From: a virus
DNA length: 24,475 bases
Strand: one strand, 5' to 3'
IMG/VR virus record: IMGVR_UViG_3300034104_001467
Span: 1 to 24,475 of that record
The first letter of the stretch is position 1. Every line of letters starts with the position of its first letter. The notes beneath the pieces are model-generated. The model worked only from the letters and a program-made list of their open reading frames with translations. It made no database searches and was not told where the DNA came from. This document shows positions 1-19,694 of the stretch, piece after piece. A program made the translations under genes and the position numbers.

Positions 1-2
1 CA

Positions 3-8
3 CCTCCT
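3..8 (-). promoter_or_regulatory. Shine-Dalgarno of a gene beyond the left edge
   Basis: On the minus strand the first bases of the window read CACTAGGAGGTG. The AGGAGG core is a near-consensus ribosome-binding site, and its first two bases are also the last two of a TAG stop codon (9-7). The same stop-plus-SD arrangement (TAGGAG) occurs at two confident gene boundaries in this window, so a further minus-strand gene probably starts just left of position 1. Its start codon is not in the window. Confidence 0.55.
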
Positions 9-150: not shown

Positions 151-160
151 AGCTAGGACC

Positions 161-237
161 GCCCCCCTTAGAATTCGGGAGAGCCACCCACTTGGGGGGC
201 CGCTTCGACCGATCCTATCCAATTGAGCTAGGGGTGC
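161..237 (-). tRNA. tRNA-like relic (5' half), candidate attachment site
   Basis: On the minus strand, bases 237-214 read like the 5' half of a bacterial tRNA: GCACCCC (acceptor 5' strand), TA, then a D-arm GCTCAATTGGATAG. It most resembles tRNA-Arg-type genes as I recall them. A 77-base stretch down to 161 ends in GGGGGGC, which pairs with the 5' strand at 6 of 7 positions, so size and acceptor look right. However, no convincing anticodon arm with a 7-base loop and no TTCGA T-loop can be found, so a functional tRNA is unlikely. Lying immediately upstream of, and 4 bases from, the recombinase reading frame, it is best read as a tRNA-derived relic or attP-like site. The G-run pairing may be chance. 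Confidence 0.4.
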
Positions 238-240
238 CTT

Positions 241-1155
241 GTGCGAGCCGAGTATAGCAGAGGGCTTGTGGATTCCAACGGAGGGGGTAGTCTCACCCCC
301 CTCACCCAGATCCACAAAATTTCCGATAACAACATGACTGTGCGACAGTTCGCGGAGGCTTACGCCCTCCAGTCGGGGGCTAGCCCCGGATACCGTGAGC
401 AACTCGTTGTGATGGCAAAGCGGCTCCCTTGGGGGGTGGCCGACTTGACCGTCGCCAACATCGATGCGTACCTGACGAATGCTCTCGGTCATCTCGCCGC
501 CTCCACGGTTCACAACCATCGCCGGATGCTGTCCACCCTGCGACGAGCCGCCCTGCGCGACGGCCTGCTGGTGGACGATTGTACACGCCCGATCCGCCGT
601 GTCAAGCACACGCTTCCGATGGTCCGCGCTTGGACCCATGACGAGATGAGAACACTGCTTGCGGTGGCCTCTGAGATGCCGGGGGGTACGCTGTACTGCC
701 CGCACAGAATCCTGCTGCCCGCATGGATTCTTGTGGGCTACAGCAGCGGGCTGCGGCTCGGGGATCTGCTGGCCATTACCTACGATTCCCTTCGCGGGGA
801 TCGCTTGGCTACGGTGCTGCAGAAAACTCGCCAGCCGCATGTCGTCGTCCTTGACGCTAATGCCTTGGAATCCATTCGCTCCCTACCTCGTCGCGGCCCG
901 AAGATTTTCGGGGGACTGGTTGGAAGGAGCCGGATCATAGTGGCCATGCGCGCACTTGTCAAAAGTGCAGGTCTGACTGGCTCAGGCAAATACCTGCGTA
1001 GAAGCAGTGCAACTTACGCCCAATTAGCGGGAATGGACGCAACTGGACACCTGGGTCATTTGACCCCGGGCATGAAACGGCACTACCTAGATCCCGTGAT
1101 TCTGTCGGATCTGAAGCGGGCGGTGCCCAGCCTAGAACTGGCTGGGCAACCCTAG
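241..1155 (+). CDS. int: tyrosine recombinase / phage integrase
   Basis: This is a site-specific recombinase of the tyrosine (lambda-integrase/XerD) family, expected to integrate and excise the phage genome. With GTG 241 as start (304 aa), an N-terminal SAM-like core-binding region (about 32-115) is followed by the catalytic domain. Arg172 lies in SGLRLGDLL, Lys195 in the beta-hairpin, Arg253 in KYLRRSSATYAQ, His273 in HLGH, and the nucleophile Tyr282 in KRHYLDP. The usual HxxR histidine is Lys250 here. The start is uncertain: GTG 241 has AGGGG six bases upstream but touches the tRNA-like element, while ATG 334 (273 aa) begins right at the conserved domain but has no clear SD. It is the only plus-strand gene. 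Its last 24 bases overlap the 3' end of the opposing 1222-aa gene. No excisionase or repressor is visible. Confidence 0.9.
   Translation: MRAEYSRGLVDSNGGGSLTPLTQIHKISDNNMTVRQFAEAYALQSGASPGYREQLVVMAKRLPWGVADLTVANIDAYLTNALGHLAASTVHNHRRMLSTLRRAALRDGLLVDDCTRPIRRVKHTLPMVRAWTHDEMRTLLAVASEMPGGTLYCPHRILLPAWILVGYSSGLRLGDLLAITYDSLRGDRLATVLQKTRQPHVVVLDANALESIRSLPRRGPKIFGGLVGRSRIIVAMRALVKSAGLTGSGKYLRRSSATYAQLAGMDATGHLGHLTPGMKRHYLDPVILSDLKRAVPSLELAGQP
1125..1147. terminator. 8-bp hairpin at convergent gene ends
   Basis: GCCCAGCC, a 7-base loop (TAGAACT) and GGCTGGGC form a perfect inverted repeat. It spans the stop codon of the minus-strand 1222-aa gene and lies just before the stop of the plus-strand integrase. 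The position suits a bidirectional terminator or mRNA-end structure for convergent transcripts. No U-run follows on either strand, so it is not a textbook intrinsic terminator. Confidence 0.35.
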
Positions 1156-4100
1156 CATCTGCATCGGGTCCATCCCGGCCTGCGCTTTTTTCTTGTCCCG
1201 GGCGCGCTTGGCGGCTTCGTTCTGGATGATCTTGTAGAGCAGGTACATGTCACGCTGTTCCTTCGGCATGGACCGCAGGACATCGTCTGGGACAGTTATG
1301 TTTTCGTAGGTGCGGACGCCGGGGGTGGTGGACAGGAGTTTGTTCAGCATGTCCCGGGCGGCGAGTTGCTTGGTCCGTTCGCTATCAACGTCCGTGAGCT
1401 TCAGCCCTGCCAAGAGGTTGAATGCTGCCTTGGAGTATCTGTCTGCTGGATCAAGCCGGTCGTCACGCAACTGCCGGTAGGTTCCGATGGCACGGGCACC
1501 GAACGGCAGCAGGTTGGTCGCAAGCTGCTCCAGCGGCCTGCCCATTGGGCCAATGTCTTGCTCTAGGACTGAGTAGAGGTCTGACAACTGTCTGCCGGAA
1601 TACAACTGCCGGTTGGTGATGTACTCCAGTGGGGCTTTGATCAGCGGGTTAGCCATGCCCAAGATGTTGGAGCCAGTGCGCTGAACGGCGTCGGCCACCC
1701 TTGCGGAGGCCGTGGCCCCAACACCAAGTGATGGCAAGCCAAACGTCGATTCCCACGGCAAGTCTACGTTGGTCAGATACCGGCGCAGCCCCGGCTTTGG
1801 GGAGCCGCCAAGCAGCGAAGTCCACTCCGCTGGGAGCGGGATGGCTGCGGATTGCCGAAGATGCTCGGGCACCATGTTGCCTTCGGTAGGCTCGGTGCCA
1901 CGGGTCACCGCCCGTATCGACTGGCCCTGCAGTCCGCCAGGGTTGTAGACTAGTCGGTCGAAAATGCTTGGCATGATGTTTTTCTGGAAACTCCAGAACG
2001 GCATCGCGCGCTTCATAAACGTCCGGTCGAAGCCAGTGAAAGCCTCCGGCCGATAGTCCACGTTCACCATGCGGTTGAGGTCACCAGCCACGCCAGGATC
2101 GACACCCTTGCGTAGCTGATTGATGAACGTGCCGTTTCGCAGCATGTCCTCAACGGTCGAACCAATTGCGTCATTAGCAACTAGTAGCGGGTTGGTGTTG
2201 CGAGAAGGTGCCTCGCGAGTCCAGCCGACTCCTCGCATGCTGGTAAAGTCGTCTACAAACTGCCCCCACGTTCGCTCGGGATTGTAGAACGAGCGAGCCA
2301 CGGAACCCCCGGTAGAAGCTCCTGGGTAGTTGCCGCGAATCTCCTGCTCAGGACGACCAGACACGTCATCAATGAGGTTGCCAGTGGAGACTTGTTGCGC
2401 ACCAGACAGCCGGATGTATCGCTCTAGGATCTGATCGTCGGTCAGGCCCTCAAAGGCAGGAGTGCCTCGCAGTCGATTCACTAGCGCGTCGTAGTTTCCG
2501 CGGCTGGCCTGAAACGCCGCCCAATAGTCAGAAGGACTGAAAGCCCCGTGTGCCGCAGCATTGATCATGCCGCTGTAGGAGTTACGGACATGGAACGCGG
2601 GCGATGCAAGTGCCCCAACCTTAAAGGCATTGGTCAGGTTATCGATGCCCTTCAGCAATCCCTGCTCGGGGAGCGCGGCCCGCGTTTGCGGGGCGAGCGT
2701 GGCGAGGGCATTGATGTATCGCTCATTGATAGAAAAGTTGGTGGGGTCTTGGCCTGTGCGCGCCTGCCACATCTGACGGAAGTTCCGCTCGTCATAGCCA
2801 AGGCGCTGAGCGGCCTCGGGCAACGCAATGTTTACACCACCAGCGGAAGCTCCTGCCGGGACATTCTCCACCAGCTGCATCATGCGATTGGTGAGAACGT
2901 CCGAGTTAGCCTGGGTGCGCGCCTGCCCCCGGCGATACTGCCGCACGTTCTCCCAAGCGGGCGTGTCGTAGATGCCAGTGCCAGTCTCAGCGAACTGCGT
3001 GTCCGCAGATCGAATGATGTCTGCAAGGTCGCGGTAGTTACGCCCAACGCGAGCGGTCAAGGCAGTATCCATTGCGGCCCGCTCAGCAGGAGTGGCAGCA
3101 ATGTACTCAGGGGATTGACGAACGGAATCTTCAATGCCTTGGTACACCGACTGCCCAGGCTGTTTCCGGCCGATGGCATCAAATGCTGAGTCCAAGATCA
3201 TGCGAGCCTGCCGCTCGTTGGCACCAATGAGAGACTGTTGCAATCCGCGGGAATCAATCACGCCCCGCCTGCCGTTAGCGATGGCATCGGCAAAGTCCTG
3301 CGGAGTCGTTCCGGTAAGCGCGTTGAACGTGTCCTGCCCGCCAACAACGTCTGTGTATTCGGGGCGGCTGCGGCCAAAGTTGTCGGCCGTGTTGATGAAA
3401 CGCGCATCTCGCCCCCACGGCCGCTGGGTGGCAACGCCTCCACCCGGGATGTCGGGCGGAGCAGGACGCTCAAACCATTTTGTCTGGCGCGGTATCCAAC
3501 CCGTGTCTGAGTTGGCGCTCGCCCACTGCGGCGCAGGCAGTCCCCGCGATGCAGACTCTGCTTGCGCCTGCGGACCAAGGTTAGTCATGGAGTCACGGAT
3601 GATCCGAAACTCTGGGGTGTTCTCCATGACCCAGTCGGCTACCGCATCGCCGCTAGTGCGGGGGAGGCTCGGGCCAAAAACGGTGGGCTGAGACTCTACC
3701 CAGTTGTTTAGCGCACGCTGGAGATCGGAGCTTTGGAACTGTCGAAGCGTTCTCGGGATAGCCTCGCCCGCCAGAGGCCCAGAAGAGACAACCTCGGGAA
3801 CCTGGGCGCGCTGGGCGTTAAACACCGCCACGGCATCCTCGCCATCGACCCGTTCTACAGCATCACGCGCAGCCCGATGGGCCATGCGGTGATCCATCTG
3901 GAGCGCATTGGTCAACTCCAGGTCGTTGCTGACCACTCCAAGAGGCCCAGCCGCGGGGCTAGTAAGCGAAGCGGCTGTGCGAGTGATGTTGCCAATGACT
4001 GGAGCAGTCTTTGTCCAGTTCCCCAGCGCATCGGCGTTTCTGGCAACCGCATCGCCAAACGCGCCGCCGTCAACGCTGAAGCCGATGTTTGTGCCCGGGA

Positions 4101-4800
4101 CGCGGAAGTCGTCCAAGACACCAACGGCTTCGGTCATCCCGTTGGGGCCGACTCCAAACCGTTGAAATTGCTGATTCAGCCTTGTCTCTGCGGCCTGTCT
4201 GGCAGCGGGGTCAGCGATCTGGGCGAGGAGAGTGTTGGGCGTGGACAGCCTGTTGTATTCTCGCACCCTCGGCAGATCGTCGGCGTACGCTGGCAACCCG
4301 CGAGCAAGACGCAAAGCGCCAAGGTTGTCCACGGAATCCAAGGCCGCATCCCGCATCAAGCCTGCCGCTTGGGCAGCGCGACCGGCCGGACCTAGCGCAC
4401 CTTTTCCTAGCACAGCACTCAGGCCCAGCGTGCCGTAGGTCAGTGGGTCTAGGAGAATCTCAGCCGCCAAGCCACCACCGAAGTTGCCCCAAGTATCTTG
4501 GGTGCCAGCCATGCCGTACTGGCGCAGAAGTTCCCGGCCCGTTACGCGGTCGTCGGATGATCCAAGAAAACTAAGGGGCTTGCCTGCCAGAACGCCTCGC
4601 ACAAGCGCGCCAGGGGTGTCCAGCAGCCAACCGGCCGTAGACAGAGTGGACGTTCCAGCCTCCGCAAGAGAGCGGAGCATGCTGCTCTTCTCTTCCTGCG
4701 GCATAAGGTCCGCAAGAGTCGGATCATCGTTGGGGATCCCCTCCTGCCCATTCAGCAGGCCATAGGGATCGTATAGATCAAAGAGCGGGGAGCGAGCCAT
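1132..4800 (-). CDS. very large internal virion (ejection-type) protein
   Basis: This 1222-aa protein is the largest in the window and the last gene of the structural operon. It resembles the giant internal or ejected proteins of short-tailed phages by family-like segments: GRELLRQYG and EILLDPLTYGTLG near residues 88-126, SPAFHVRNSYSG near 733, MKRAMPFWSFQKN near 930, and NLLAGLKLTDVDSE near 1128, followed by a charged helical tail rich in Lys and Arg. In related phages such proteins line the capsid interior and enter the cell with the DNA. I see no lysozyme or transglycosylase active-site pattern, so an enzymatic role is not claimed. Its ATG (4800-4798) overlaps the preceding stop as TAATG, giving translational coupling. 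Its 3' end overlaps the convergent integrase gene. Confidence 0.6.
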   Translation of the reverse strand: MARSPLFDLYDPYGLLNGQEGIPNDDPTLADLMPQEEKSSMLRSLAEAGTSTLSTAGWLLDTPGALVRGVLAGKPLSFLGSSDDRVTGRELLRQYGMAGTQDTWGNFGGGLAAEILLDPLTYGTLGLSAVLGKGALGPAGRAAQAAGLMRDAALDSVDNLGALRLARGLPAYADDLPRVREYNRLSTPNTLLAQIADPAARQAAETRLNQQFQRFGVGPNGMTEAVGVLDDFRVPGTNIGFSVDGGAFGDAVARNADALGNWTKTAPVIGNITRTAASLTSPAAGPLGVVSNDLELTNALQMDHRMAHRAARDAVERVDGEDAVAVFNAQRAQVPEVVSSGPLAGEAIPRTLRQFQSSDLQRALNNWVESQPTVFGPSLPRTSGDAVADWVMENTPEFRIIRDSMTNLGPQAQAESASRGLPAPQWASANSDTGWIPRQTKWFERPAPPDIPGGGVATQRPWGRDARFINTADNFGRSRPEYTDVVGGQDTFNALTGTTPQDFADAIANGRRGVIDSRGLQQSLIGANERQARMILDSAFDAIGRKQPGQSVYQGIEDSVRQSPEYIAATPAERAAMDTALTARVGRNYRDLADIIRSADTQFAETGTGIYDTPAWENVRQYRRGQARTQANSDVLTNRMMQLVENVPAGASAGGVNIALPEAAQRLGYDERNFRQMWQARTGQDPTNFSINERYINALATLAPQTRAALPEQGLLKGIDNLTNAFKVGALASPAFHVRNSYSGMINAAAHGAFSPSDYWAAFQASRGNYDALVNRLRGTPAFEGLTDDQILERYIRLSGAQQVSTGNLIDDVSGRPEQEIRGNYPGASTGGSVARSFYNPERTWGQFVDDFTSMRGVGWTREAPSRNTNPLLVANDAIGSTVEDMLRNGTFINQLRKGVDPGVAGDLNRMVNVDYRPEAFTGFDRTFMKRAMPFWSFQKNIMPSIFDRLVYNPGGLQGQSIRAVTRGTEPTEGNMVPEHLRQSAAIPLPAEWTSLLGGSPKPGLRRYLTNVDLPWESTFGLPSLGVGATASARVADAVQRTGSNILGMANPLIKAPLEYITNRQLYSGRQLSDLYSVLEQDIGPMGRPLEQLATNLLPFGARAIGTYRQLRDDRLDPADRYSKAAFNLLAGLKLTDVDSERTKQLAARDMLNKLLSTTPGVRTYENITVPDDVLRSMPKEQRDMYLLYKIIQNEAAKRARDKKKAQAGMDPMQMLGLPSQF

Positions 4801-8598: not shown

Positions 8599-9798
8599 CT
8601 ACATGAAATTTCTGAACGTGGACTGACGACGCTGAACCCCGGCGTAAGGAGAGTTGGCGACCTCGGCAAGCGCCCGCTCTCTCTCGCGCTTGCTACGCTC
8701 CCTAGCCGCGTCCTCCATTGACCACTGCTCCTGCTGGACTTGGGGCTTGCTGCGGAACATGCCCATGTTGCCAATGGAGCGGTTGAACAGATCGTTCACC
8801 CCGGCCACGGACGAGTTGTACATGCCCTTGTTGTCCGACCAGCCAGAGTTCATATCCGTCTGGACGGTCCCGATCCGATTGGCCGAATCGGAATAACCAC
8901 CAGCCAGGGCTTCCAAGAGCGAGCCGGTCGGGATCGCTTGGCCGGGGCGGTTGTTGTTTTCCTGCGACTCACGCGCGAAGTCATAGAACTGATTCATGCC
9001 GCCGGATGACGCGCCGAGATTCATCCGGTTAAAGTCCATCAGTGCGCCATAGGCATCGCTCACCATCGTACGGGGCATGTTGCGGGCGAGGGCTTGATCT
9101 GCATTGAGGGAGCCAACGTCAGCGTCATGCGTGCGCGCCAAGGCGTTTAGCTCAGCGCCGTTGTTGATGTCACCGCGCAAGCCTTCCAGCATGCTGTAGC
9201 CTTCGCCACCGCTAGCAGGAGAGCTACCAGTGGCATTGCCTGCCAGACCGGGAAGGGAAGCGGAGACATCGCGGCCGACCTGCATCGCCGCGCCAGACTT
9301 GCCCAGGCCAGCCAAGGCGTTGTACCGACCAATGCCAAGCTGGCTGACAGCGTTCTGGTTGCCGACATTCATGTCAGCCAGAGACTTCTGGTAGCCGTTC
9401 TGGTTCTGCGCCCACGCTTGCAGACCTTGGCCAGCCACGTTGCCGTAGTTCGCCATAGCTGCGGTGCCGAGATTCGACACTGCCGCCTGACGCGCAGCCT
9501 CGGCAGCGGAAGCAGCTTGGTTGTTGGCCTGGGCGTTGTTCCACGTATTGCCAAGAGCGTTGGCCACGCCGCCGATACCACCAGCCATGGCGGCATAGTT
9601 CTGGGCGTAGCTGTTTCCAAGGCTTGCAAGCCCTTGGTTGTACGTGCCATACCCCTTGTTGTAGGAGTCGTACATCCCGCCCAGCGTCTGGCCAAACTGG
9701 GTTGGTGCCCCAGCAACCTGACCACCAACAGCCGTGGCGTATTCCTTGGCGGTGTTCGCCCCCCACGGGGCCAGAAAGGTTCCATCAAATGCAGCCAT
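8599..9798 (-). CDS. Gly/Ala/Asn-rich structural protein (399 aa)
   Basis: A low-complexity but ordered-looking protein. The first 200 residues are dominated by Ala, Gly, Asn, Gln and Tyr with a loose repeat (YDSYNKGYGTYNQGLASLGN, then YAQNYAAMAGG), suggesting long helices packed through small residues. The middle has more typical globular sequence, and residues 350-380 form a highly charged helix (EDAARERSKRERERALAEVA). There is no catalytic motif or signal peptide. ATG 9798 has the ribosome-binding site TAGGAGACACGC, which also contains the upstream stop. Position after the receptor-binding genes and composition suggest an internal or ejected virion protein; this is inference. Confidence 0.5.
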   Translation of the reverse strand: MAAFDGTFLAPWGANTAKEYATAVGGQVAGAPTQFGQTLGGMYDSYNKGYGTYNQGLASLGNSYAQNYAAMAGGIGGVANALGNTWNNAQANNQAASAAEAARQAAVSNLGTAAMANYGNVAGQGLQAWAQNQNGYQKSLADMNVGNQNAVSQLGIGRYNALAGLGKSGAAMQVGRDVSASLPGLAGNATGSSPASGGEGYSMLEGLRGDINNGAELNALARTHDADVGSLNADQALARNMPRTMVSDAYGALMDFNRMNLGASSGGMNQFYDFARESQENNNRPGQAIPTGSLLEALAGGYSDSANRIGTVQTDMNSGWSDNKGMYNSSVAGVNDLFNRSIGNMGMFRSKPQVQQEQWSMEDAARERSKRERERALAEVANSPYAGVQRRQSTFRNFM

Positions 9799-9807
9799 GC
9801 GTGTCTC

Positions 9808-11043
9808 CTATTTGCTATTGCCCCGAATGGCTCGTTTCAGTGCCGACAGGGAAATAGCGGCCAAAACCAAGGCGTACCCAGCGGGTTGGAAAAACCACAA
9901 ATCCCGCTTTTCGGCCTCTTCCTTGAGCCAGCCGATGATCTCAGGCAGGCGCGTCAGGCACTCCCATTCCCCCCAAGCGTCCATCTGTGCAGCCCGCGCG
10001 TTACAGCTGCAGGTGGGGGATGCCACAATTCCCGCGAGGCTCAGGAGCCTTTTGACTTCCGCCCCAGGCCCGGGTGGCGGTGGCGGTTCCTCCCCGGCTG
10101 CGTAAACGATTGGATCACCAATGGCTGCGGGCGTGTAGCCGGGGCAGGGGTCCGGTGTGATGGTCCCGGTGAAAGTTCCGCGGTTGTCTCCAGTATTTGA
10201 ATCGTTCTGGCGCAGGTACAACAGGCCCGCCCCAGGCGACCCGGAGTAACTTGAGCCAACCAAGAAGGGGGTGCCTGTTAGGCCAATCCTGCCAATGAGA
10301 GCCATGTGGCAAATAGCAAACACCACGCTGTTCGCATTGGAGCAGTCAGCAGCAGGCACGCCATTGGGCGTGGCAGTCGAACCGGCTCCCGCCCACTCCA
10401 CTGTCCCTGCGGCGCAGCGGTCGCAACTCGCCGTGGCCGAGATCGCCACGGCTGAACCCGCCGTAAGCGTCACTCCAGTGTTCAGCCACTCGTTTGTGTT
10501 GACATTGACGGTGAAGCTGGTGGTCGATGCAGGAAGACATCCAGATGACCCGCAGCACTTCTGTCCAGATGTGCAGCAGTTGTAGGCCGAACCAGTTCCA
10601 GCGCAGAACGTGCCGGTCGTACACTTGTTCACACAGTTCCCGCTGGCATTATCGCATCTCTGCGACAGCGGACAGCACGTTCCGGCACAGCAGGAACGAG
10701 GAGCAGGGCAGGTGAGAACGCAGAAACCCGTGGCGGTGTCGCATGCGTTGCAGTAGTAGCTTGGGCACCCGCCGTTAAAGACACCGCCCGAAGTCAGCGT
10801 GACACAATTGCATGTAGTGTAGGGGGCGTGCAGAATCTTACCTGCATTGCTGCACTGGCACGCATCCGCAAGGGTGCATTGCGGGGAGACTGAAGGCTGG
10901 TTTACGGGGGCGGTGCATGCGTACTGCGTGCAATTCCCGCCCGCTGTAAACGTGCCGGAAGTGGCAGCGCACTGAGAGGCTCCCGTAGCAGTGCAAGTGG
11001 CCCCGTTGCAGCACCGGCCTGTCTCGCAACATGAACACGCCAT
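9808..11043 (-). CDS. cysteine-rich protein with LecA-like lectin domain and C-terminal hydrophobic anchor
   Basis: This 411-aa, three-part protein is probably a virion receptor-binding component. Residues 1-170 contain 32 cysteines, many as CC or CxC pairs (SCCAGTCCPLSQRC), implying a disulfide- or metal-stabilised rod. Residues about 176-297 match the PA-IL (LecA) galactose-lectin pattern: NEWLNTGVTLTAGSAVAI, then MALIGRIG, then FLVGSS, then LLYLRQNDSNTGDNRGTF. In LecA the corresponding loop holds calcium and sugar; Asp281, Thr284, Asp286 and Asn287 are the likely equivalents, with the loop slightly shortened. A Pro-rich linker (about 319-325) leads to a C-terminal module with Cys345, Cys347 and Cys362, then a hydrophobic stretch (about 384-402) and a basic end. 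No signal peptide is seen. ATG 11043 overlaps the upstream stop (TGATG). The lectin call is fairly secure; the role is inferred. Confidence 0.7.
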   Translation of the reverse strand: MACSCCETGRCCNGATCTATGASQCAATSGTFTAGGNCTQYACTAPVNQPSVSPQCTLADACQCSNAGKILHAPYTTCNCVTLTSGGVFNGGCPSYYCNACDTATGFCVLTCPAPRSCCAGTCCPLSQRCDNASGNCVNKCTTGTFCAGTGSAYNCCTSGQKCCGSSGCLPASTTSFTVNVNTNEWLNTGVTLTAGSAVAISATASCDRCAAGTVEWAGAGSTATPNGVPAADCSNANSVVFAICHMALIGRIGLTGTPFLVGSSYSGSPGAGLLYLRQNDSNTGDNRGTFTGTITPDPCPGYTPAAIGDPIVYAAGEEPPPPPGPGAEVKRLLSLAGIVASPTCSCNARAAQMDAWGEWECLTRLPEIIGWLKEEAEKRDLWFFQPAGYALVLAAISLSALKRAIRGNSK

Positions 11044-12932
11044 CAGAATCGCGGCCTCAAGTAAACGAGTATGTCTGCCTTGGGCGCTACTGTTATGTCC
11101 AGTTTCTTTGTCTCCTGCTCTTCATCCAGTGACACCTCGTCGTCCTTCAGAGTCCCTTCGCCCGTAGGCTCCTTGACTGCTATTGAACCACTTAAGGACG
11201 CGGGCACATCAATGGTGCCCGCCGTTAGCGTGACGGTGGCTCCAGTAGCACTGACCGTAACTGTCGATGTGGTGCTGCCGCTCGTTGGAGTGAACGTGCC
11301 GCCATTCACCGTGAGCGAGGCAGATGCGGACCCAGAGGACTTTGTGAGCGTGACGGTGGGCGTGGTGATGGAGACGGCGGTGGCTGTAGAGCCAGTCAGC
11401 GAAACAACACCACCGGAAACTGGAGCAGAAAACGCGGCGGTGGCAGCTGTCTTGGTGAGCGAGATGGTTGGCGTTGTGATTGACAACGCGCGAGATGTGG
11501 AGCCAGACAGGGTGACCGTACCACCTGCGACTGTGAACGTCGGCGTGACGGTTGCGGTGGACTTGTTCAGAGTTACGGATGGGCCAAAGACAACAAGGCT
11601 ACGGTTCGTTTCACCGCCCAGCAGAACACTGCCCGCAACACTTCCCTGCGAGCTAATGGTCACCCCGGGCGTGCCCGTGAAGGTCACGTTGTAGGTCTGG
11701 TTGGTGGTTGTAAGCACTAACTTGCAGGAGGCGTCCAAGTAGCCTCCGGTCGGCATCGGTATGGTGACAGTTCCTGCAAGAGAACCCAGTGAAGCGGCGG
11801 CTTGGATGCCCGTAGGCGTTGCGGTAAAAGATCCCGTGGTCGGAACAGGGCACAATCCAGTCACGGATCCCACGTTGACGGTCGGGTATATGTCGTACGT
11901 GAGTGAGCCACTTGCCGTTGCGCCAGCGAGCGCCCCAGTGGTTGGGAGCGAGACGGTTCCTGACACAGTGCCACAGGTCGCTGTTGGGTAAGTGTCGTAG
12001 GAAATGGTGCCGCCAGCCGTCGCTCCAGACAGCGCCCCGCCAGTAGGAAGAGATACCGTGCCAGTGATGGTGCTGCACGTAGCGGTCGGGTACGTGTCGT
12101 AGGAAATGTTGCCGCTCGCTGTGGCACCCGATAAAGAACCGCCCGTGACGGTCGGAAGGGTTACCGTCCCGGAGGCGCTGATGGCACTGATGCTTGCGCT
12201 TTCGACAGTCGGAACTTCCACGGTTCCCGTGACCGTAAACTCCTTGTTTCTGTCCGTGGTGCCAACGGTCACCGCTTTGTCGAACACGTAGGCGTTGGTC
12301 GCGTGCGGCACACCTACTGTGCCGTTAACAATCACGCTCTTCAGAATGCGCGTGCGGCCGTTAGTGAAAGGCAGCTGCATCGGAACGAAACCACCGCCGC
12401 CAAAAAGGACGGTGGTTATGCCATCGCGCCCGTCGCGCCCGCTCGCGCCATCGCGACCGGCTTGACCAACGTAGGTGTTGTTGATGTAGTCAACATTAAG
12501 GTTGGTGGTGTTGAGGTTCTCGGTGGTTGTGTTGTTGATGGTGGTGTTTTCAAACGTGCTGTTGCCTGCGACGTTGAACGTGTCGCCACCGAAGTAGTTG
12601 TTGTAGTTGAAGTCTTGGTTGATCGGGAAATTGAACTGGTGACCGTCGTAATTGTTGGTGTTGTTGGTGTTGTTGTAAGTGTCGCCAGCGACATCAACGA
12701 AGGTGTCTTGGCCAGCGGTAGGCAGCAGATCGCGGTAGTCGGATGTCTTCCACACTCCTGGCCGCGCCAGACCACCAGCGCCTGTGGTGTTTGGGGGCTG
12801 GATATTGACCGCACCGCGGTGCGAGAGCGGCTGCTGGCAGTTACCGAGAGCCTGCATCAGCTGCCGCAGCGCGGCTTCTGGGAGAGCGCCGGACAGAGCC
12901 TGCGCCAGCTGCGGCATGCTTTGCGTAAACAC
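11043..12932 (-). CDS. collagen-like, beta-repeat tail fibre/spike protein
   Basis: This 629-aa fibrous protein starts at GTG 12932, overlapping the upstream stop as TAGTG, with GGAGGG about nine bases before. Residues about 85-155 are Asn/Thr-rich with repeating NNT/NTT units typical of beta-helical shafts. Residues 156-171 are five collagen-like GXY triplets (GQAGRDGASGRDGRDG). Residues about 255-358 hold three 34-36-residue units (GTVSLP...SGATA...ISYDTYPTAT). Residues 450-560 hold three 37-residue units (TPTxxLTK...GGxVxLxGSTS). The C-terminus is acidic, then ends in LVYLRPRF. Collagen triplets and beta-repeats are common in trimeric phage fibres. No receptor-binding tip domain is recognisable, so a shaft or decoration role is possible. 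Confidence 0.65.
   Translation of the reverse strand: MFTQSMPQLAQALSGALPEAALRQLMQALGNCQQPLSHRGAVNIQPPNTTGAGGLARPGVWKTSDYRDLLPTAGQDTFVDVAGDTYNNTNNTNNYDGHQFNFPINQDFNYNNYFGGDTFNVAGNSTFENTTINNTTTENLNTTNLNVDYINNTYVGQAGRDGASGRDGRDGITTVLFGGGGFVPMQLPFTNGRTRILKSVIVNGTVGVPHATNAYVFDKAVTVGTTDRNKEFTVTGTVEVPTVESASISAISASGTVTLPTVTGGSLSGATASGNISYDTYPTATCSTITGTVSLPTGGALSGATAGGTISYDTYPTATCGTVSGTVSLPTTGALAGATASGSLTYDIYPTVNVGSVTGLCPVPTTGSFTATPTGIQAAASLGSLAGTVTIPMPTGGYLDASCKLVLTTTNQTYNVTFTGTPGVTISSQGSVAGSVLLGGETNRSLVVFGPSVTLNKSTATVTPTFTVAGGTVTLSGSTSRALSITTPTISLTKTAATAAFSAPVSGGVVSLTGSTATAVSITTPTVTLTKSSGSASASLTVNGGTFTPTSGSTTSTVTVSATGATVTLTAGTIDVPASLSGSIAVKEPTGEGTLKDDEVSLDEEQETKKLDITVAPKADILVYLRPRF
11253..11585 (-). 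repeat. three tandem 37-residue beta-repeats
   Basis: In the 629-aa fibre, units start at residues 450, 487 and 524 with an exact 111-base spacing. The shared pattern is xPTxxLxK, then about 12 Ala/Ser/Thr residues, GGxVxLxGSTS, and SIT. The regular alternation of beta-branched residues suggests stacked strands of a fibre shaft. Confidence 0.65.
11859..12173 (-). repeat. three tandem 34-36-residue beta-repeats
   Basis: In the 629-aa fibre, residues about 254-358 repeat GTVSLPTxGALxGATAxGxISYDTYPTAT three times, with a cysteine in the first two units. DNA similarity is visible as recurring GTCGTA(G/C)G and TCGGGTA blocks, so the copies are recent enough to recombine. Confidence 0.7.
12420..12467 (-). 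other. collagen-like GXY segment
   Basis: Residues 156-171 of the 629-aa fibre read as five consecutive Gly-X-Y triplets with Arg-Asp pairs (GRD, GRD, GRD). Such short collagen-like runs are widespread in phage fibres, where they help trimerise the shaft. The run directly follows the Asn/Thr-rich region encoded at 12468-12680. Confidence 0.75.
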
Positions 12933-15517
12933 TACTTCGCACCCTCCACAACGACCGTGTGTATGGAAGGCGTGTTGCCGGACGACGACTGAGTACCGGC
13001 AAACGCTACGGCGACATGCCTGTCGGCCCCGGCAGAGCGCTCTTCATTGCCGCCGCTGAACATGGCGCGTGCAACACCGCTCGCCTCACCGAGAGCAGAG
13101 CGGGTGCGTTTCATGTTCAAAACAGACTCCGCGCCCGGGACGACTGGGACAAACCCATCCCCCCGATCACTGGCAACGGCATTCGGACGCGGGGTATCGG
13201 AGCCGTTGAAGTAGCGAGACAGCGAGAGCGGGGCATCGCCAGTAGTCGGCGTGTACAGCACGCTCACGGCCTGCCTGCTTTCCTCAGTCACTAGCTCCAT
13301 GTTGCCGGAACGGAAGCTGTACGGGATTGCCGTGCCGTTGTCTGAGTAACCAGCCATGCGTACGAAGCCAGACGCGGCGTACGCAACCCCCTGCTGCCCG
13401 CCAACTGCATAGGGTGCCGCAGCAGTCAGTGGCACTGCGTACTGCTCGTCCCACCAAGACTTGGTAGTTACCGAGTAGCACAGCGCGCGGGCGGGCGAGG
13501 AGTCTGTGGAGTTGCAGTAGAAGAATCGGACAACCTTGGTGGCCAAGTCGGCCCGCACAAAAAACAGCGCGGACTTTGAGAAGTCGATGATGCCGTCACG
13601 CCAGTAGTTGTCCACCGGCACGGAGATAGGCTGGTCGCCCTGGCCGTCAAAGACATACATCCCGTAGCTATCCGCAATGAAAGCCACGCCGCCCATCACA
13701 TCCCAGCAGCGGCTGTTCAGCACGCCGCGGTAGGCCACCAGCATGATGCTGGCATCCAGCACTGGCTGGGCCACGTAGTTCAGCTTGTATAGGTGCCGGG
13801 ACTGGGCGGCGACTAGAAATGAGCCGAGAGGGATGAGGGCCACCACTGCATCGGAGTCGCCAGCGTTCTCCTGGACAACAAGCTCATTTTCCAAGGGGAT
13901 GGATTCTGGCTCGTCCACCTCTGAGAAGTAGAGGCTGTTGGGTTTCTCGCCGGTCGTATCCACGGCCAGCCAGCAGCGGTCTTGGAACATGCACGCCACT
14001 GAGAAATTCCCTGGAGGCACTCCAAACCGGCGGGCGTTCAGCTGGCCGCTAGGCAGCGTCACAGGCAGCAAGCCGTAGCCATCGCGCTCCGCATCAGACA
14101 GCTGCTCGTCAGTGAACGTATCGGTGAACGTGCCAGTAAAATTCCCGGCCGACCGCAGGATCTTCGCCACGCGGAACAGCAGGACGCTTTGGTCGGAGGT
14201 GGTGCGCCACAACTCCACGGCAGTGACACGGTCGTCCAGCCCCGCGTGCGCAAGAGTCCAGGTCAAAGAGGACGCACCGTTTTGAACGTCAACCTCAACC
14301 AGTTCCGAAATCGAAGAACTGATCGGGCCGCGGAACTTCTCTGGCGTGGAGTCGATGTATCGGATCGCGCACTTATACTTGCCGCGCAGGACGTTGGAGA
14401 CAGTCGCGGTGGCAGTGGCGTTGTAGTCGCCAAGCGCCACAGTCGGCGGCAAGGCGTAGCTGCCAGCGCCATAGACAGATACCTTCGTTATGCTTCCGCC
14501 GGACACCGCCGCAGTGGCCGCGGCTGCAGAGGCTGTATCGTCGGTGGAGTCGGGCTGAAATGAGATGGTGGGCGGCGAGAGAAAGCCGGTCCCGCCGTTG
14601 GTGACCGTCACCGCCGCTACCCCGTACTGCATGCCGACAGACAGGACGGCACCCGCACCACCGCCTCCAGTCAGCGAAGCAGTCACAGCGCCAGTCGCTC
14701 CCTTGCCGCCAGAGCGAAGGTCTACGGCCGAGATAACTCCAGTGTCCGATACGGTGACGACAGCGTTCGCGCCGGTCAGACCCTGCGCACTGGAGAACAC
14801 CACCGTGGGAGTGGAGGTATAGCCCGTGCCGCCATTGACCACAGTTACGGCCTGCACAGATCCAGAGACGCCAACAGAGAACGTCGCGCCAGCCGCATTG
14901 CTGACGCTCAGGGACACGGCTGGAGCAGATGTGTAGCCCGCCCCAGGCTCCGAGATGGTGATGCCCACAACCCTTCCGCCAGCGACATCCGCACGCGCCA
15001 CTGCAGTGGTGGTTGGGGAGCCGCCAGAGAACGTGACTGTCGGAGCGACCGAGTAGCCGTTGCCGGGGCTGACGACATTGACCGCATCCACATAGCCAGC
15101 CATTGATGAACTGGCGATAGCGACTGCCGGTCCCTTGTAGGGCTTCTGCAACCCGATTGGCTGCATGGTGCCTGCGGAGCCATCCCAGCGCAGGCCGCGG
15201 CCCATGCCATCGAACACGTACAGATCATTGAAGCGGGAGCGGACAAACGACGCCGGGATGATAGAACCCGCGTAGACGCTCGCGGACGCCAAGGCATTGC
15301 CAGAGAGAGTGACCGTGGGTGCGGATGTGTAGCCTGTTCCACCATTGGTGATAACGACAGACTCAACCTGCGTACCGGCCATGTGGGCAAGTCCGACAGC
15401 GCCCGTGCCGCCGCCGCCAGAAAAGCTCACTGAAGGTGGAGCGGTGTACCCGGAACCGCCAGTGGTTATTGAGATTGAGACGACTTGGCCGGATCGACGC
15501 TGGGCCAGATAGGTCAT
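12932..15517 (-). CDS. tail nozzle/stabilisation-like protein with GGxGYTxxPTV repeats
   Basis: An 861-aa protein is called from ATG 15517 (MTYLAQRRSG), which overlaps the upstream stop as TAATG. The open frame continues upstream, but there it only shadows the 91-aa gene. The N-terminal 350 residues hold about eight copies of a beta-repeat (ITNGGTGYTSAPTVTLSG). After about residue 360 the protein has a propeller-like pattern of short strands ending in aromatic or glycine turns (LYVFDGMGRG near the N-terminus; LYFSEVDEPESI, GSFLVAAQSRHLYKL, SYGMYVFDGQGD, TKSWWDEQY further on). This resembles the nozzle or head-closure proteins of short-tailed phages (T7 gp12-like role). It sits directly after the adaptor gene, as expected. 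Assignment is by pattern and gene order, not by a decisive motif. Confidence 0.6.
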   Translation of the reverse strand: MTYLAQRRSGQVVSISITTGGSGYTAPPSVSFSGGGGTGAVGLAHMAGTQVESVVITNGGTGYTSAPTVTLSGNALASASVYAGSIIPASFVRSRFNDLYVFDGMGRGLRWDGSAGTMQPIGLQKPYKGPAVAIASSSMAGYVDAVNVVSPGNGYSVAPTVTFSGGSPTTTAVARADVAGGRVVGITISEPGAGYTSAPAVSLSVSNAAGATFSVGVSGSVQAVTVVNGGTGYTSTPTVVFSSAQGLTGANAVVTVSDTGVISAVDLRSGGKGATGAVTASLTGGGGAGAVLSVGMQYGVAAVTVTNGGTGFLSPPTISFQPDSTDDTASAAAATAAVSGGSITKVSVYGAGSYALPPTVALGDYNATATATVSNVLRGKYKCAIRYIDSTPEKFRGPISSSISELVEVDVQNGASSLTWTLAHAGLDDRVTAVELWRTTSDQSVLLFRVAKILRSAGNFTGTFTDTFTDEQLSDAERDGYGLLPVTLPSGQLNARRFGVPPGNFSVACMFQDRCWLAVDTTGEKPNSLYFSEVDEPESIPLENELVVQENAGDSDAVVALIPLGSFLVAAQSRHLYKLNYVAQPVLDASIMLVAYRGVLNSRCWDVMGGVAFIADSYGMYVFDGQGDQPISVPVDNYWRDGIIDFSKSALFFVRADLATKVVRFFYCNSTDSSPARALCYSVTTKSWWDEQYAVPLTAAAPYAVGGQQGVAYAASGFVRMAGYSDNGTAIPYSFRSGNMELVTEESRQAVSVLYTPTTGDAPLSLSRYFNGSDTPRPNAVASDRGDGFVPVVPGAESVLNMKRTRSALGEASGVARAMFSGGNEERSAGADRHVAVAFAGTQSSSGNTPSIHTVVVEGAK
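14445..15485 (-). repeat. array of about eight GGxGYTxxPTVxFSG repeats
   Basis: Within the 861-aa protein the following occur in order: GGSGYTAPPSV, GGTGYTSAPTV, PGNGYSVAPTV, PGAGYTSAPAV, GGTGYTSTPTV, a degenerate GGKGATGAV, GGTGFLSPPTI and GAGSYALPPTV. Each is preceded by a V-x-x-V-x-V-strand and usually followed by a glycine-rich turn. Copies 2 and 3 are separated by an about 65-residue non-repeat segment that carries the LYVFDGMGRG motif. Confidence 0.7.
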
Positions 15518-15792
15518 TAGGCGCTGCCTGTCTTCACGGAGGAGTAGATGCGTCCGGCCGAGTCTTGGTAGACGAGATGCTCTTGTGTGCCGCTCTGGTA
15601 TCGGAAGGCTGACACAACAGGAGATGCCGTGGAGTCGGCAGAAGTAAACGTGATGGGCGACAGGCCAGCGCGCACAGTGAGCTTCCCCGGCACCAAGCAC
15701 TGCAGGTTGACTTGCTGTACCGTTGAGCCGGGAGGTATGGAATACGGCGAGGCGTTTGTGACCAGCCCAGCCCACTTGTCGATGACGATCAT
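15517..15792 (-). CDS. N-terminal part of nozzle-like protein on its own ORF (91 aa)
   Basis: This 91-aa protein (MIVIDKWAGLVTNASPYSIP... to ...SVKTGSA) looks like the N-terminal segment of the nozzle/stabilisation type of phage protein (SPYxIPPGxxxQQVNLQCLxPGxLTVRxG, then SAFRYQSGTQEHLVYQD). In phages I recall, this segment is fused to the propeller-like part that here lies in the next gene. The two are joined by TAATG, so they are co-translated. ATG 15792 has an excellent ribosome-binding site (GGAGGT, spacing 5) formed by the last codons of the adaptor gene, whose stop it overlaps as ATGA. It is either a genuine separate subunit or half of a split gene. No slippery heptamer is visible at the junction. 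Confidence 0.6.
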   Translation of the reverse strand: MIVIDKWAGLVTNASPYSIPPGSTVQQVNLQCLVPGKLTVRAGLSPITFTSADSTASPVVSAFRYQSGTQEHLVYQDSAGRIYSSVKTGSA

Positions 15793-16925
15793 GGATTACC
15801 TCCATCGAAGTTGTCGGCCTGCAGCGGCGTCCTCCACGCCATAGCATCGAAGATCACTCGCTGCGGCTGCTGGAACGGAGTGAGGGCATCAGACTCCATG
15901 GCCAGACGCAAGTCCCGCTGGTACATGGCGAAGGCGTTGTCCGGCTTGGTGTTGCGCGTGCGGGCCAGCCAATACGCAGCACAGGACAAGAATCCGTTAT
16001 TCATCCCAGGCGACATGTCCACTATGTCGGTGACGAGGTACTTCGCCCCCGTTGCAGTAAGGGAGGTGGCCAAGGTGCAAGAGGTGGCGCTGGCGACTGA
16101 TGCGATAACTGCCTCTCCTTGGTAGGGGAGAAGCGATCCATCGCTGCCTGGGAAATCAGTGGCGGTGCCCACTCGCATGACCGAACCAACCATGGCGGCT
16201 GTGAAGGCAGTGCCCGTGCCAGTGACGGCCGTGCCAGCGATGGTCACCGTGCCCTGACGCGAGCTAGCCTCATGGCCCGAGATCCGCAGGCGGCGCGGCA
16301 GGCGGCGATACGTGAAGTCCAGGTTAGAGTTGGCGACCGGATACCCAACGACCTTAATCGCCCACCCAGTGCCATGAGGATCCTTGATGACCGTCCACGC
16401 ATGCGGCGGTCCTGCAAGGTTATTGGCGTTCTCCAGCTTCATCGCTTGGTCTGCCGACACGTAGATGAACCGCGTCCAAGCGACATGGTCGATTGGGGAG
16501 TCCAGCGACCGGAAGTCGGACGGCAGGGGAAAGGTGTCTTGGTACAGCGTGGCTGCTGTGGGATTGAGGAAATCACTGGATGGAGTCAGGATCGGGTCGC
16601 ACAGCAGTCGGGTGCTGCTGACGCGGGTGGCAATCTTGGCGACCGTGTTGTTGAGTCGCATGCGCGACAGCACCGAGTTGGTCGGGAATGCGTCCCCAGA
16701 CGACAGGTCGAAGAACCTTGTGTCTTGGCTGTAGGTAACCGAGCCGTACCAGTTGATGGAGAACCGGATCCGGCCGTGAGTCTGGTAGTAGTTCCAGTCG
16801 CGGATCGTTGAGAGTTCGCTGTAGGCGCGCTGGATGGATGTGCGGATGTCGGTCTGTTCAGCATCCTGCGGGCCACCCGAACTGCTGGTGATGAGATGTT
16901 CGACCGCGTCGTAGTAAGTCAGCAT
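15789..16925 (-). CDS. head-tail adaptor / tail-tube-A-like protein
   Basis: A 378-aa protein, probably the ring that joins portal to nozzle (T7 gp11-like role). The N-terminus (MLTYYDAVEHLITSSSGG, then RAYSELSTIRDWNYY) has the helical hairpin with conserved WxYY typical of podophage adaptors. The middle is beta-rich (FPLPSDFRSLDSP, KVVGYPVANSNLDFTYRR). Residues about 230-260 contain the TVTIAGTAVTGTGTAFTAAM pattern, frequent in adaptors as an inserted beta-domain. The C-terminal helices (LSCAAYWLARTRN) complete the fold. ATG 16925 overlaps the upstream TAA, with GAGG about seven bases before. Gene order (fibres, adaptor, nozzle) supports the call. The C-terminal codons DGGN double as the SD of the next gene. 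Confidence 0.65.
   Translation of the reverse strand: MLTYYDAVEHLITSSSGGPQDAEQTDIRTSIQRAYSELSTIRDWNYYQTHGRIRFSINWYGSVTYSQDTRFFDLSSGDAFPTNSVLSRMRLNNTVAKIATRVSSTRLLCDPILTPSSDFLNPTAATLYQDTFPLPSDFRSLDSPIDHVAWTRFIYVSADQAMKLENANNLAGPPHAWTVIKDPHGTGWAIKVVGYPVANSNLDFTYRRLPRRLRISGHEASSRQGTVTIAGTAVTGTGTAFTAAMVGSVMRVGTATDFPGSDGSLLPYQGEAVIASVASATSCTLATSLTATGAKYLVTDIVDMSPGMNNGFLSCAAYWLARTRNTKPDNAFAMYQRDLRLAMESDALTPFQQPQRVIFDAMAWRTPLQADNFDGGNP
15798..15803 (-). promoter_or_regulatory. SD embedded in adaptor C-terminal DGG codons
   Basis: GGAGGT lies five bases before ATG 15792 and is read in the adaptor frame as Gly-Gly of the C-terminal FDGGNP. It is the strongest of the embedded ribosome-binding sites in this operon and fixes the start of the 91-aa gene. 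Confidence 0.75.
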
Positions 16926-17249: not shown

Positions 17250-18506
17250 TTACCAAGTCGCGTGTGCAATGCGCCGCCATGTATTGGTGGCCGTGCATAT
17301 GTACAGATGCGTAGCGTCCCAACAGACCTCGCCCACTGCGCCAGTCGCCGTGGCTGATGCTGGCGTCCGAGCAGTGCGGATGCGGACTGTGCTGCCAGCC
17401 ACATCGATAGGCACGGTCGGGCTTGTAACGCCCACGCCGATGCTTCCAGCGAAGTAGCTCTGTGCCGTGGCGTCCGAGTAGATTGCATAGTTGCCGCCTG
17501 CGGCGGGTGGATTGACGATGCGCACGCCATAGTTAGTGCTGGCATTAAGCGCATTCACGTAGACGCCGGTATTTGCAGTCCCTGCGCCCGTAGCCTGCCC
17601 CATGAGGGCATAATTAACCGTTCCGGCACCTGCGTTAATGACGCTATTTACGCCTGTCCCGCTAGAGTGGGTGACATACAAAGCCGCTCCCGTACTCGCC
17701 GCGCCGATGCCTACCTTGCCCGAAGAATCAATCCGCATCCTCTCCACGCCACCAGTGCTGACGGCGAGTGTGTCTGCAGCCGGAAATAGTAGCCCAGTGT
17801 TCGCGTCCGAATACACGCTAATCGAAGGCGCAGCCGCCGAGCCGGACGAATAAACGGCAAAGCCAACATTGTCGAATCGTCCAACATCGATCCCGCTAAC
17901 TAGGAATCTGTGAGCGCCTGCTCCGACTTGGTTGTAGATGATCTGCGAGCCGGTCACGTAGTTGGACAGGTACAGAAGGCCAGCTGTTGTTTCTGCAAGC
18001 TGGCCCGTGCCTGCTGTCGCTGTCAGGTTGAGCGTAGCACCAGCCGCCACTGAGACAGTGAAGGTGCCAGACACCGTTCCGCCAGTCAGCGGCAGATAGG
18101 AAGATGCGGCGGCTGTGGCCATCGTCCCGAGGCCGAGCGTGGCACGGGCCGCGGAGGCATCCGCGTCATCAATGATGGATCGCCCGAACGCTGTGCAGGT
18201 GATCTCTTCCACCACCCCGGCCCCAGCCGTTGACCGGCCAAGCACGCGGTCGGTGGCAGACACGTTCTGGACTTTGGCGTATGTGACGGCAGAGTTTGCT
18301 ATGCCTGCCGTTATTACCGCCCCGCCCGCAATCTTCGCTGCGGTGACGCTGCCATCCGCGGGCGTGGCGACGAACGTCGAAACCCCACCGGCAGCAGTCT
18401 GGTAGAAGAGTTTCCCATCCGCTTGGTTGATGGCAATTTCGCCGTCAGCCAGCGAGGCTGGGACTTGTCCGGCGGCGTTGCTGCGCTTTAGGCGTGGAGG
18501 GGGCAT
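17250..18506 (-). CDS. tail fibre protein (418 aa)
   Basis: A receptor-binding fibre. The N-terminus (PRLKRSNAAGQVPASLADGE, then IAINQADGKLFYQ) is the virion-attachment motif shared with the 601-aa and 255-aa fibres of this window. Typical shaft signatures follow: ARATLGLGTMATAAASSYLP, then LTGGTVSG, DANTGLLFPAADTLAVSTGG and VERMRIDSSGKVGIGAAST, with IGVGVTSP near the end. The C-terminus (GAVGEVCWDATHLYICTATN, then TWRRIA) is a common closing beta-motif of phage fibres. No C-terminal intramolecular chaperone is visible. ATG 18506 has AGG six bases upstream and follows the largest gap in the operon (40 bases), so its translation is less coupled than its neighbours. Confidence 0.75.
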   Translation of the reverse strand: MPPPRLKRSNAAGQVPASLADGEIAINQADGKLFYQTAAGGVSTFVATPADGSVTAAKIAGGAVITAGIANSAVTYAKVQNVSATDRVLGRSTAGAGVVEEITCTAFGRSIIDDADASAARATLGLGTMATAAASSYLPLTGGTVSGTFTVSVAAGATLNLTATAGTGQLAETTAGLLYLSNYVTGSQIIYNQVGAGAHRFLVSGIDVGRFDNVGFAVYSSGSAAAPSISVYSDANTGLLFPAADTLAVSTGGVERMRIDSSGKVGIGAASTGAALYVTHSSGTGVNSVINAGAGTVNYALMGQATGAGTANTGVYVNALNASTNYGVRIVNPPAAGGNYAIYSDATAQSYFAGSIGVGVTSPTVPIDVAGSTVRIRTARTPASATATGAVGEVCWDATHLYICTATNTWRRIAHATW

Positions 18507-18546
18507 GGAAAACCTAAGAAAGTGGGCCTAAAGACTATTGTCCCCG
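18507..18546 (-). other. 40-base intergenic gap, largest in the operon
   Basis: This is the only spacer of more than about 15 bases between structural genes. On the plus strand it contains a direct repeat, CCTAAGAAAG and CCTAAAG. I see no convincing hairpin with a T run and no sigma-70-type promoter. It could hold a phage-specific promoter, but nothing demonstrates this. Confidence 0.3.
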
Positions 18547-18897
18547 CTAGATCGTCGCCGCCTCAATGAACGCCTGATCGACCTGCGCCTCGCTCATTCC
18601 CAGAGCCGCCGCGAGCGGCACAAGCATGGGGTGCGTCCGCTCCACGTAACCTGAGTAGTCCCACTCCACCCTCACAGAGTCTCGCTGTAGCTGGTCGGGG
18701 ATCGCATCGATGGCTGCATCAACCTGTGCGAGGCTAATGCCCTGACGCAGTAGCCAGAGGCGTATCTGGCGGGCAGAGACGCTCGCCGGTACAGATTCTT
18801 CCACGGCCTGTTGGTTCATGCCGATGACGTTGCCGCTCTCATCACGCACTTCCCATGTGTGCATGCCGTTGATCACGCCGATATAGGTGGTGTTCAA
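18547..18897 (-). CDS. fibre-associated accessory protein (116 aa)
   Basis: A short protein with an N-terminal beta segment (YIGVINGMHTWEVRDESGN) followed by helical sequence with a pattern I recall from small proteins next to phage tail fibres: SARQIRLWLLRQGISLAQVD, then AAIDAIPD, VEWDYSGYVERTHPMLVPLA, then MSEAQVDQAF. A role in fibre assembly or as a small tail component is plausible but not shown. The start is TTG 18897, sharing the TTGA overlap with the stop of the 263-aa gene and preceded by GGGAG at six bases, which supports the unusual start codon. Confidence 0.55.
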   Translation of the reverse strand: MNTTYIGVINGMHTWEVRDESGNVIGMNQQAVEESVPASVSARQIRLWLLRQGISLAQVDAAIDAIPDQLQRDSVRVEWDYSGYVERTHPMLVPLAAALGMSEAQVDQAFIEAATI

Positions 18898-19685
18898 GAG
18901 ATTCTCCCGTACATCATAAAGCTGCCAGATGACACGGTAGTAGCCGATGTTGGCATGTCTGACAGGCTTCCCACATTACCCGCAACCATCGGCGGTAGAC
19001 GCATGAATGCGCCAGTGCTGACAGTGGCGGTTTGCCACTGCCCAGCCGTGGTGCCGACAAGCAGGAACCCTACCGCGTAGCGAGAGCCAGCGACGAGATC
19101 GTATGACGCAGGAAAACCACCGGCCGTGCTGAATGTGCGAGAGTAGATTGTATTAGCGACGTTGCCAATCGTTGTGTCACTGGCAGTCTGCGCGACCATA
19201 GTGATAGATGGTGATGTAACCGTTTTGCCGTCGATTATCGTTTCGGAGACTGTAAACAAAGCGAACTTGCACAGCGTGAGCGAAGCGGTCGCCGTTCCCG
19301 CGGTTACAAACGTGATCGTTGTCACTGTGGTGTTTGTTGGTGCGGTGAAAAAAGCTAGGTTCAAGAGGCCAGACGAGGCATTGGCACCTCCGATTACGCC
19401 ATGCCCTCGCGGCAACCAATCAATCGCGTTGCTACTTGCCTGCATTGCCCAGCGCAGATTTGAGTTCACTGTGACGTTGCCGCTCAACCTCGCATCGCTC
19501 AGCGTGCCAGAGGTGACCTGCGAGGCTGCGAGCGACAGGGCATCGACACCGCCCGTAGCATGGCTGGCCGCATGCCCCGAGACGTTGGCAACCAAGCTCC
19601 AGGCGTAGCCGTCCCAAGAGTAGGTACGTCCGTTGACCACCGCGATTTGGCCGGACGCTGGCGAGGAGGGAAAAGTGATTGGCAT
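18894..19685 (-). CDS. fibre/collar-like receptor-binding protein (263 aa)
   Basis: The N-terminus (FPSSPASGQIAVVNGRTYSW, then DGYAWSLV) is a common phage fibre motif in which a short beta-hairpin ends in W. It is followed by a collar-like segment (HAASHATGGVDALSLAASQV) as found before receptor-binding tips. The C-terminal 180 residues are beta-rich and Thr/Ser-rich with no catalytic pattern, probably a jelly-roll-type or Ig-like tip. ATG 19685 lies nine bases after the 601-aa gene with a GGGG SD-like run. It ends in a TTGA overlap with the 116-aa gene. Fibre or head-decoration roles are both possible. Confidence 0.6.
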   Translation of the reverse strand: MPITFPSSPASGQIAVVNGRTYSWDGYAWSLVANVSGHAASHATGGVDALSLAASQVTSGTLSDARLSGNVTVNSNLRWAMQASSNAIDWLPRGHGVIGGANASSGLLNLAFFTAPTNTTVTTITFVTAGTATASLTLCKFALFTVSETIIDGKTVTSPSITMVAQTASDTTIGNVANTIYSRTFSTAGGFPASYDLVAGSRYAVGFLLVGTTAGQWQTATVSTGAFMRLPPMVAGNVGSLSDMPTSATTVSSGSFMMYGRIS

Positions 19686-19694
19686 GGGCTACCC

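Follow-up and report, generated by a model that had tools for sequence, protein, structure and literature searches.

A phage protein that joins a cysteine-rich region, a LecA-type fold and a helical module: a candidate tail adhesin

Tail-fibre assembly chaperones such as Tfa and T4 gp38 are encoded directly downstream of the fibre. We compare with these chaperones, with the PA-IL/LecA lectins (LecA of Pseudomonas aeruginosa, PllA and the N-terminal domain of EclA) and with a family of bacterial wall proteins a 411-residue protein encoded by an uncultured phage. Its gene lies in a virus record of IMG/VR, 24,475 bases long, whose whole length we call the window. A cysteine-rich region is followed in this protein by a domain of predicted LecA-type fold and then by a small helical module.

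How far does the likeness to described systems go? The lectin domain has the predicted beta-sandwich fold of the PA-IL/LecA family (TM up to 0.84) and the ND...DN-S/R-G pattern of its calcium loop, although the phage loop is two residues shorter; identity is about 20%, the domain is embedded in a 411-residue protein, and it has no Pfam match. The module is likewise a small gene right after a presumed adhesin gene, usually overlapping it and sometimes in one reading frame with it, and we also count as resemblance to Tfa and gp38 its single copy per genome and its fusions. It differs from the chaperones in its conserved CSC...C motif, and neither its sequence, searched in PHROGs and Pfam, nor its fold, searched in the PDB, significantly matches known chaperones or other entries; a chaperone-like role would be assigned to it by analogy. 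A protein of an uncultured Caudovirales phage in BFVD, A0A6J5QC46, has the same module fold and no assigned function, and differs in its length of 171 residues, over which it lacks both the cysteine-rich and the lectin part. Finally, planctomycete cell walls are reported to hold cysteine-rich YTV proteins (PMC8567305). The phage protein is like them in its high cysteine content and its planctomycete connection; homology or any other link between the two would be speculation, in which the phage would encounter host walls of the YTV type.

A preliminary description of this DNA knew of no described receptor-binding protein with the three-part build. It is indeed absent from Pfam, PHROGs, NCBIfam and 50,697 phage records; neither the whole protein nor any of its parts matches the three family databases, and no LecA-type adhesin of a phage came up in searches of the literature. 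The cysteine-rich protein and the module, split in some phages and fused in others, appear to be an undescribed pair, and the real novelty lies in this pair and in its fusion in the window phage. Extremely cysteine-rich structural proteins are unexpected in phages, being made in a reducing cytoplasm, and their tight linkage to a conserved partner module offers a way into the question of how they are folded or attached. The gene pair would be a marker for probable planctomycete-phage tail adhesins and, with a phage LecA-type lectin, would make receptor recognition on the unusual planctomycete surfaces testable.

The gene and its operon

The preliminary description had reported an open reading frame at 9808-11043 without a strand. 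The frame lies on the minus strand, with its ATG at 11043 and its stop at 9808-9810; the plus strand over this interval is interrupted by stops. The stop codon of the upstream gene and the start codon share one base, the last of the former and the first of the latter, in the manner of tight operons, and the two genes are likely to be translationally coupled. Portal, tail-tube-like and fibre genes lie nearby, which bears out the placement in a phage structural operon. The genes and the parts of the protein are as follows.

8599..9798, minus strand: downstream gene, 399 residues, Gly/Ala/Asn-rich and virion-type; by inspection, a similar gene follows the split pair in contig L097
9808..11043, minus strand: complete gene for the 411-residue cysteine-rich, LecA-fold and helical-module protein (basis: reading frame, relatives and dN/dS)
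11043..12932, minus strand: upstream gene, 629 residues, fibre-like structural protein with a short collagen-like stretch; N-terminus conserved in the Pirellulaceae contig L097
12932..15847, minus strand: virion protein, 971 residues, repeat-rich, in a tail tube- or connector-like place; homologous to the same-place gene in L097 and in a Pirellulaceae contig
10534..11043, minus strand: cysteine-rich region, residues 1-170, 32 cysteines, CxCC motif at the start
10930..11019, minus strand: GxCC..C..C..G.F..G..C repeat, residues 9-38, shared with the free-standing cysteine-rich proteins that other phages encode ahead of the module
10138..10533, minus strand: predicted LecA/PA-IL-type beta-sandwich lectin domain, residues 171-302 (profile against the PDB, AlphaFold, Foldseek)
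10183..10206, minus strand: putative Ca2+ site, residues 280-287 (N-D-S-N-T-G-D-N), with D281, D286 and N287, by alignment with the PllA calcium loop
10072..10110, minus strand: proline-rich linker, residues about 312-324, with a recombination breakpoint between relatives nearby (dS jump against L014)
9811..10077, minus strand: five-helix C-terminal module, residues 323-411, CSCN...C, one copy per phage genome and a separate gene in many phages

Relatives of the 411-residue protein occur in other phage contigs of IMG/VR at 50-98% identity, the close ones found directly and the distant ones through the C-terminal part. Against six of them dN/dS is 0.16-0.21 (Nei-Gojobori). Given this conservation and the invariance of 32 cysteines described below, the frame is a real, conserved phage gene and not a product of chance.

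The phage is probably temperate, since a tyrosine recombinase is encoded at 241-1155 on the plus strand, opposite to the virion genes (a weak Phage_integrase match, E 2.6e-4). The protein at 12932-15847 carries GGSGYTxPPxVxFSGGGG repeat units, and these account for most of its matches to many PHROG virion families that are unrelated to one another. Several fibre-like genes whose N-termini are alike (GQIAINxADGKLFY) occupy 17250-22268; the content of this region differs in G001, a contig otherwise near-identical to the window, which suggests rapid fibre exchange.

Three parts of one protein

Exactly 32 of the protein's 40 cysteines fall within residues 1-170, as the preliminary description had counted; that they lie mostly in CC or CxC pairs was an overstatement, since 17 of the 32, about half, do so. 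Each of the 32 is kept in all of ten sequences, which range down to 50% identity with that of the window. Many free-standing cysteine-rich proteins of other phages begin, as the window protein does, with CCC or CxCC, and several carry a GACC...C...C..GG.F.G.G..C repeat. Against a profile of this repeat residues 9-38 score 16.4 bits, a modestly significant value reached by 2 of 1000 composition-preserving shuffles; no shuffle reached the scores of the relatives L015 and L016, and L009, L010 and L018 gave no significant shuffle-calibrated match. HMMER was run here without composition correction, because the correction removes cysteine-rich matches, and was calibrated on the shuffles. Nor does the cysteine-rich part stand alone: in unrelated phages, genes just before the free-standing module encode comparable proteins.

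Profile search and structure prediction both point to a LecA-type lectin domain in residues 171-302, so that the family proposed in the preliminary description is right at the level of the fold. A profile of six relatives placed three PA-IL-type lectins at the top of 177,635 PDB sequences (E 0.0015 to 0.02). AlphaFold, supplied with ten relatives, modelled the domain at a local pLDDT mostly of about 80-93 that falls to 58 at about residues 231-240; the full-length model (mean pLDDT 73, pTM 0.45) is modest outside the lectin and the module. When the lectin domain was compared with the PDB in Foldseek, all 11 matches at E<1e-3 were PllA, EclA, LecA and PA-IL structures, with TM of 0.71-0.84 and rmsd down to 1.9 A. 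On these models the domain has a LecA-type fold. The curated PA-IL Pfam model matched neither the whole protein, nor the domain alone, nor any of the ten relatives. LecA was reached through the multi-sequence profile only; a single-sequence PDB search gave chance matches, including a poliovirus chain at E 0.09.

In the profile alignment D281, D286 and N287 coincide with the calcium-ligating loop (ND...NNSG) of the PA-IL family as seen in PllA. These residues and the lectin-like motifs are present where the preliminary description located them, and the pattern of the putative site is kept in eight of ten relatives and lost in L010 and L016. The segment at the likely position of His50 and Gln53, the galactose-specificity residues of LecA, reads T-P-N-G; the alignment is uncertain there, and the LecA His and Gln are not clearly present. 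Because the lectin profile matched none of the free-standing cysteine-rich proteins, the lectin is confined, among the loci seen, to the window's phage clade.

The C-terminal module is modelled by AlphaFold, at pLDDT 93, as five helices packed into a compact domain. A search of IMG/VR with the last 85 residues gave 43 matching loci, and the module is present in a single copy in each of the 38 records tested, which are uncultured phage contigs. Its consensus is PGTELKxLLxxxGIxASPTCSCNARAxxMDxxGxxWCxxNxDxIVGWLxEEAxKRxLPF, with the CSC invariant and the third cysteine nearly so. A0A6J5QC46 was the one significant match in BFVD (E 1.9e-5, 37% identity), and the module was not found among the 50,697 phage records. 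In sampled bacterial genomes other than the seeds it occurred in 1 of 391 from the phylum of the Pirellulaceae seed, 0 of 398 from that of the alphaproteobacterial seed and 0 of 288 from that of the verrucomicrobial seed; it is therefore not an ordinary host gene.

Between the window and L014, dS is 0.07 in the cysteine-rich part, 0.04 in the lectin part and 0.91 in the module. The module has thus been exchanged near the proline-rich linker, and the parts of the protein behave as separable units. Domain exchange at a linker among close relatives is typical of adhesins.

The pair, split and fused

Most other phages encode the module as a small gene of its own, and the gene immediately upstream usually encodes a cysteine-rich protein. 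Counted as one case per module cluster, this neighbour is cysteine-rich in 17 of 21 non-redundant clusters, against none of 88 other same-strand reading frames in the same loci (Fisher p 1.8e-16, with cysteine-rich defined as at least 3.5% Cys, a cut chosen after seeing the data, and with some background frames possibly spurious). In those 17 clusters the module thus has the position of a chaperone gene, immediately downstream of the presumed adhesin gene. The neighbour is not cysteine-rich in the other four clusters; in L083 the module precedes a terminase. Overlaps of about 1-40 bases between the two genes are common, and the upstream proteins hold 86 cysteines in L042, 45 in L082 and 35 within 191 residues in L032. 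Since elsewhere the free-standing module usually follows directly on a cysteine-rich gene, the window clade and L035 are natural fusions of two otherwise neighbouring genes.

Where does the pair lie? It follows the tape-measure gene in L020, in L081 and, by inspection, in a prophage-like region of G259, and it lies among tail-fibre genes in L035 and L038. Two contigs belong to one Pirellulaceae metagenome-assembled genome (MAG). The first, of 55 kb, shares its gene order along most of its length with G001, the 61.7-kb relative of the window (identity 82% in the portal-position protein, 81% in the capsid-position protein, 70% in the terminase-position protein and 51% in the integrase), and carries a split pair, a 45-cysteine gene and then the module, elsewhere in its structural region. 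The second, L097, reads tail gene, fibre gene, 117-residue gene, 19-cysteine gene, module gene, core gene; here the split pair occupies the slot of the window's fusion.

Several features of these loci may be recorded. Open-ended reading frames of at least 1544 residues lie directly upstream of the module gene in L023 (positions 1-4635 of a 200-kb contig) and L027 (194 kb); they hold 213 and 219 cysteines (about 14%), a content extraordinary for phage proteins, and end in NPLP. The same or a similar tail closes the upstream cysteine-rich proteins of L019, L020 (NLLP), L031, L034, L036, L080 and L081 and could be a docking or sorting signal. L042, L044 and L045 carry the module as a fusion with a protein that, by inspection, resembles glycosyltransferases; in the first two of these contigs the gene just before the fusion encodes a protein with 86 cysteines. 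A divergent module with a CxxC (CNECSGRKDLMNRWG) is encoded in L098 (G259:C2, reverse complement 9464-10036), a 102-kb contig, possibly a prophage, whose genome belongs to the same phylum as the Pirellulaceae seed; it comes after an 11-cysteine gene and a 568-residue gene that by inspection is tape-measure-like.

Function, alternatives and host

We propose, at a probability of about 0.6, that the protein is a virion tail adhesin, or receptor-binding protein, of a temperate phage of the short-tailed type, made of a cysteine-braced rod, a LecA lectin and a fused partner module. This reading draws on the LecA fold, the place among portal, tail-tube-like and fibre genes, the linkage of cysteine-rich proteins to the module, the split pair in the same slot of L097, the pairs near tape-measure and tail-fibre genes, the single module per genome and the exchange at the linker. 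Against it, the full protein matches no known phage receptor-binding family, four of the 21 clusters and L083 depart from the usual pairing, and the full-length model is modest outside the lectin and the module. We infer alike the protein's place in the virion, its binding of a glycan, the bracing by disulfide or metal, the partner role and the host. Residues 1-170 would form a compact rod held by disulfides, by metal or by both, either through bridging of the cysteines after lysis or through metal binding inside the cell. At its tip residues 171-302 would present a lectin, probably calcium-using, that binds a surface glycan. Residues 323-411 would be the adhesin's dedicated assembly or docking partner, acting in cis here and in trans in other phages, and the CSC and third cysteine might, hypothetically, engage client thiols or metal.

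Could it instead be an internal or minor virion protein, for example one that is ejected or part of the head-tail connector, in which the cysteines bind metal in the cytoplasm and the LecA fold is structural rather than sugar-binding? The gene adjoins genes for probable internal virion proteins (8599-9798 and 1132-4800), and cytoplasmic thiols favour metal over disulfide. Two points that speak against an adhesin also fall here: the cytoplasm is reducing, which leaves cysteine bridging unexplained, and the Ca-site residues are lost in two relatives, so glycan binding would not be universal. Most lineages nevertheless keep those residues, the pair comes after the tape-measure gene in relatives that have one, which is the place of tail-tip genes, and, like surface adhesins, the cysteine-rich partners vary greatly and are long and full of repeats. 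We hold the internal role to be unlikely.

The preliminary description had also read the C-terminus as a hydrophobic membrane anchor and had considered a lectin displayed on the surface of a lysogen. The most hydrophobic 19-mer of the protein, residues 384-402, has a Kyte-Doolittle value of 1.58; the last helix is unusually hydrophobic in the lectin clade (best 19-mer 1.6-2.4, against mostly 0.5-1.5 in homologues elsewhere), and outside the cell the cysteines would be oxidised. This helix is, however, the final one of a compact, conserved domain (pLDDT 93) that is free-standing elsewhere, where the homologous helices carry Lys, Arg and Asp. Hydropathy reveals no N-terminal hydrophobic stretch suited to export, and the gene sits inside the tail operon among virion-type genes. 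The anchor does not survive these observations, and display on a lysogen is very improbable. Anchoring is not what the module does in general; the lectin clade may have a membrane contact of its own. We give even less credence to a decoy or anti-host effector, a soluble lectin released at lysis that has no part in the virion. Bacterial LecA-type lectins are soluble proteins and a small soluble partner gene is common, which would suit a decoy; the tight translational overlap with tail genes and a tail-module place conserved in unrelated phages do not.

Beyond the tail adhesin itself, we advance tentatively, as a possibility that we would still bet against, an undescribed adhesin system in uncultured phages, probably of Planctomycetota and neighbours. 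In it one small helical protein, the CSC module, would either handle the thiols or metal of highly variable cysteine-rich tail adhesins during assembly or dock these adhesins to the tail, and the fusion in the window would betray the pairing.

The host is probably a member of the Planctomycetota, although phage contigs can be misbinned. The lead comes from the collinear relative in a Pirellulaceae bin and from the five MAG contigs that carry the module (three from Planctomycetota, one from Verrucomicrobiota and one from Alphaproteobacteria). A phrase-based literature search found no paper on phages infecting planctomycetes. G001 also encodes an S8 subtilase at 58716-59654 (Pfam E 2.6e-57), and the Pirellulaceae contig has a homologue of it at 69% identity.
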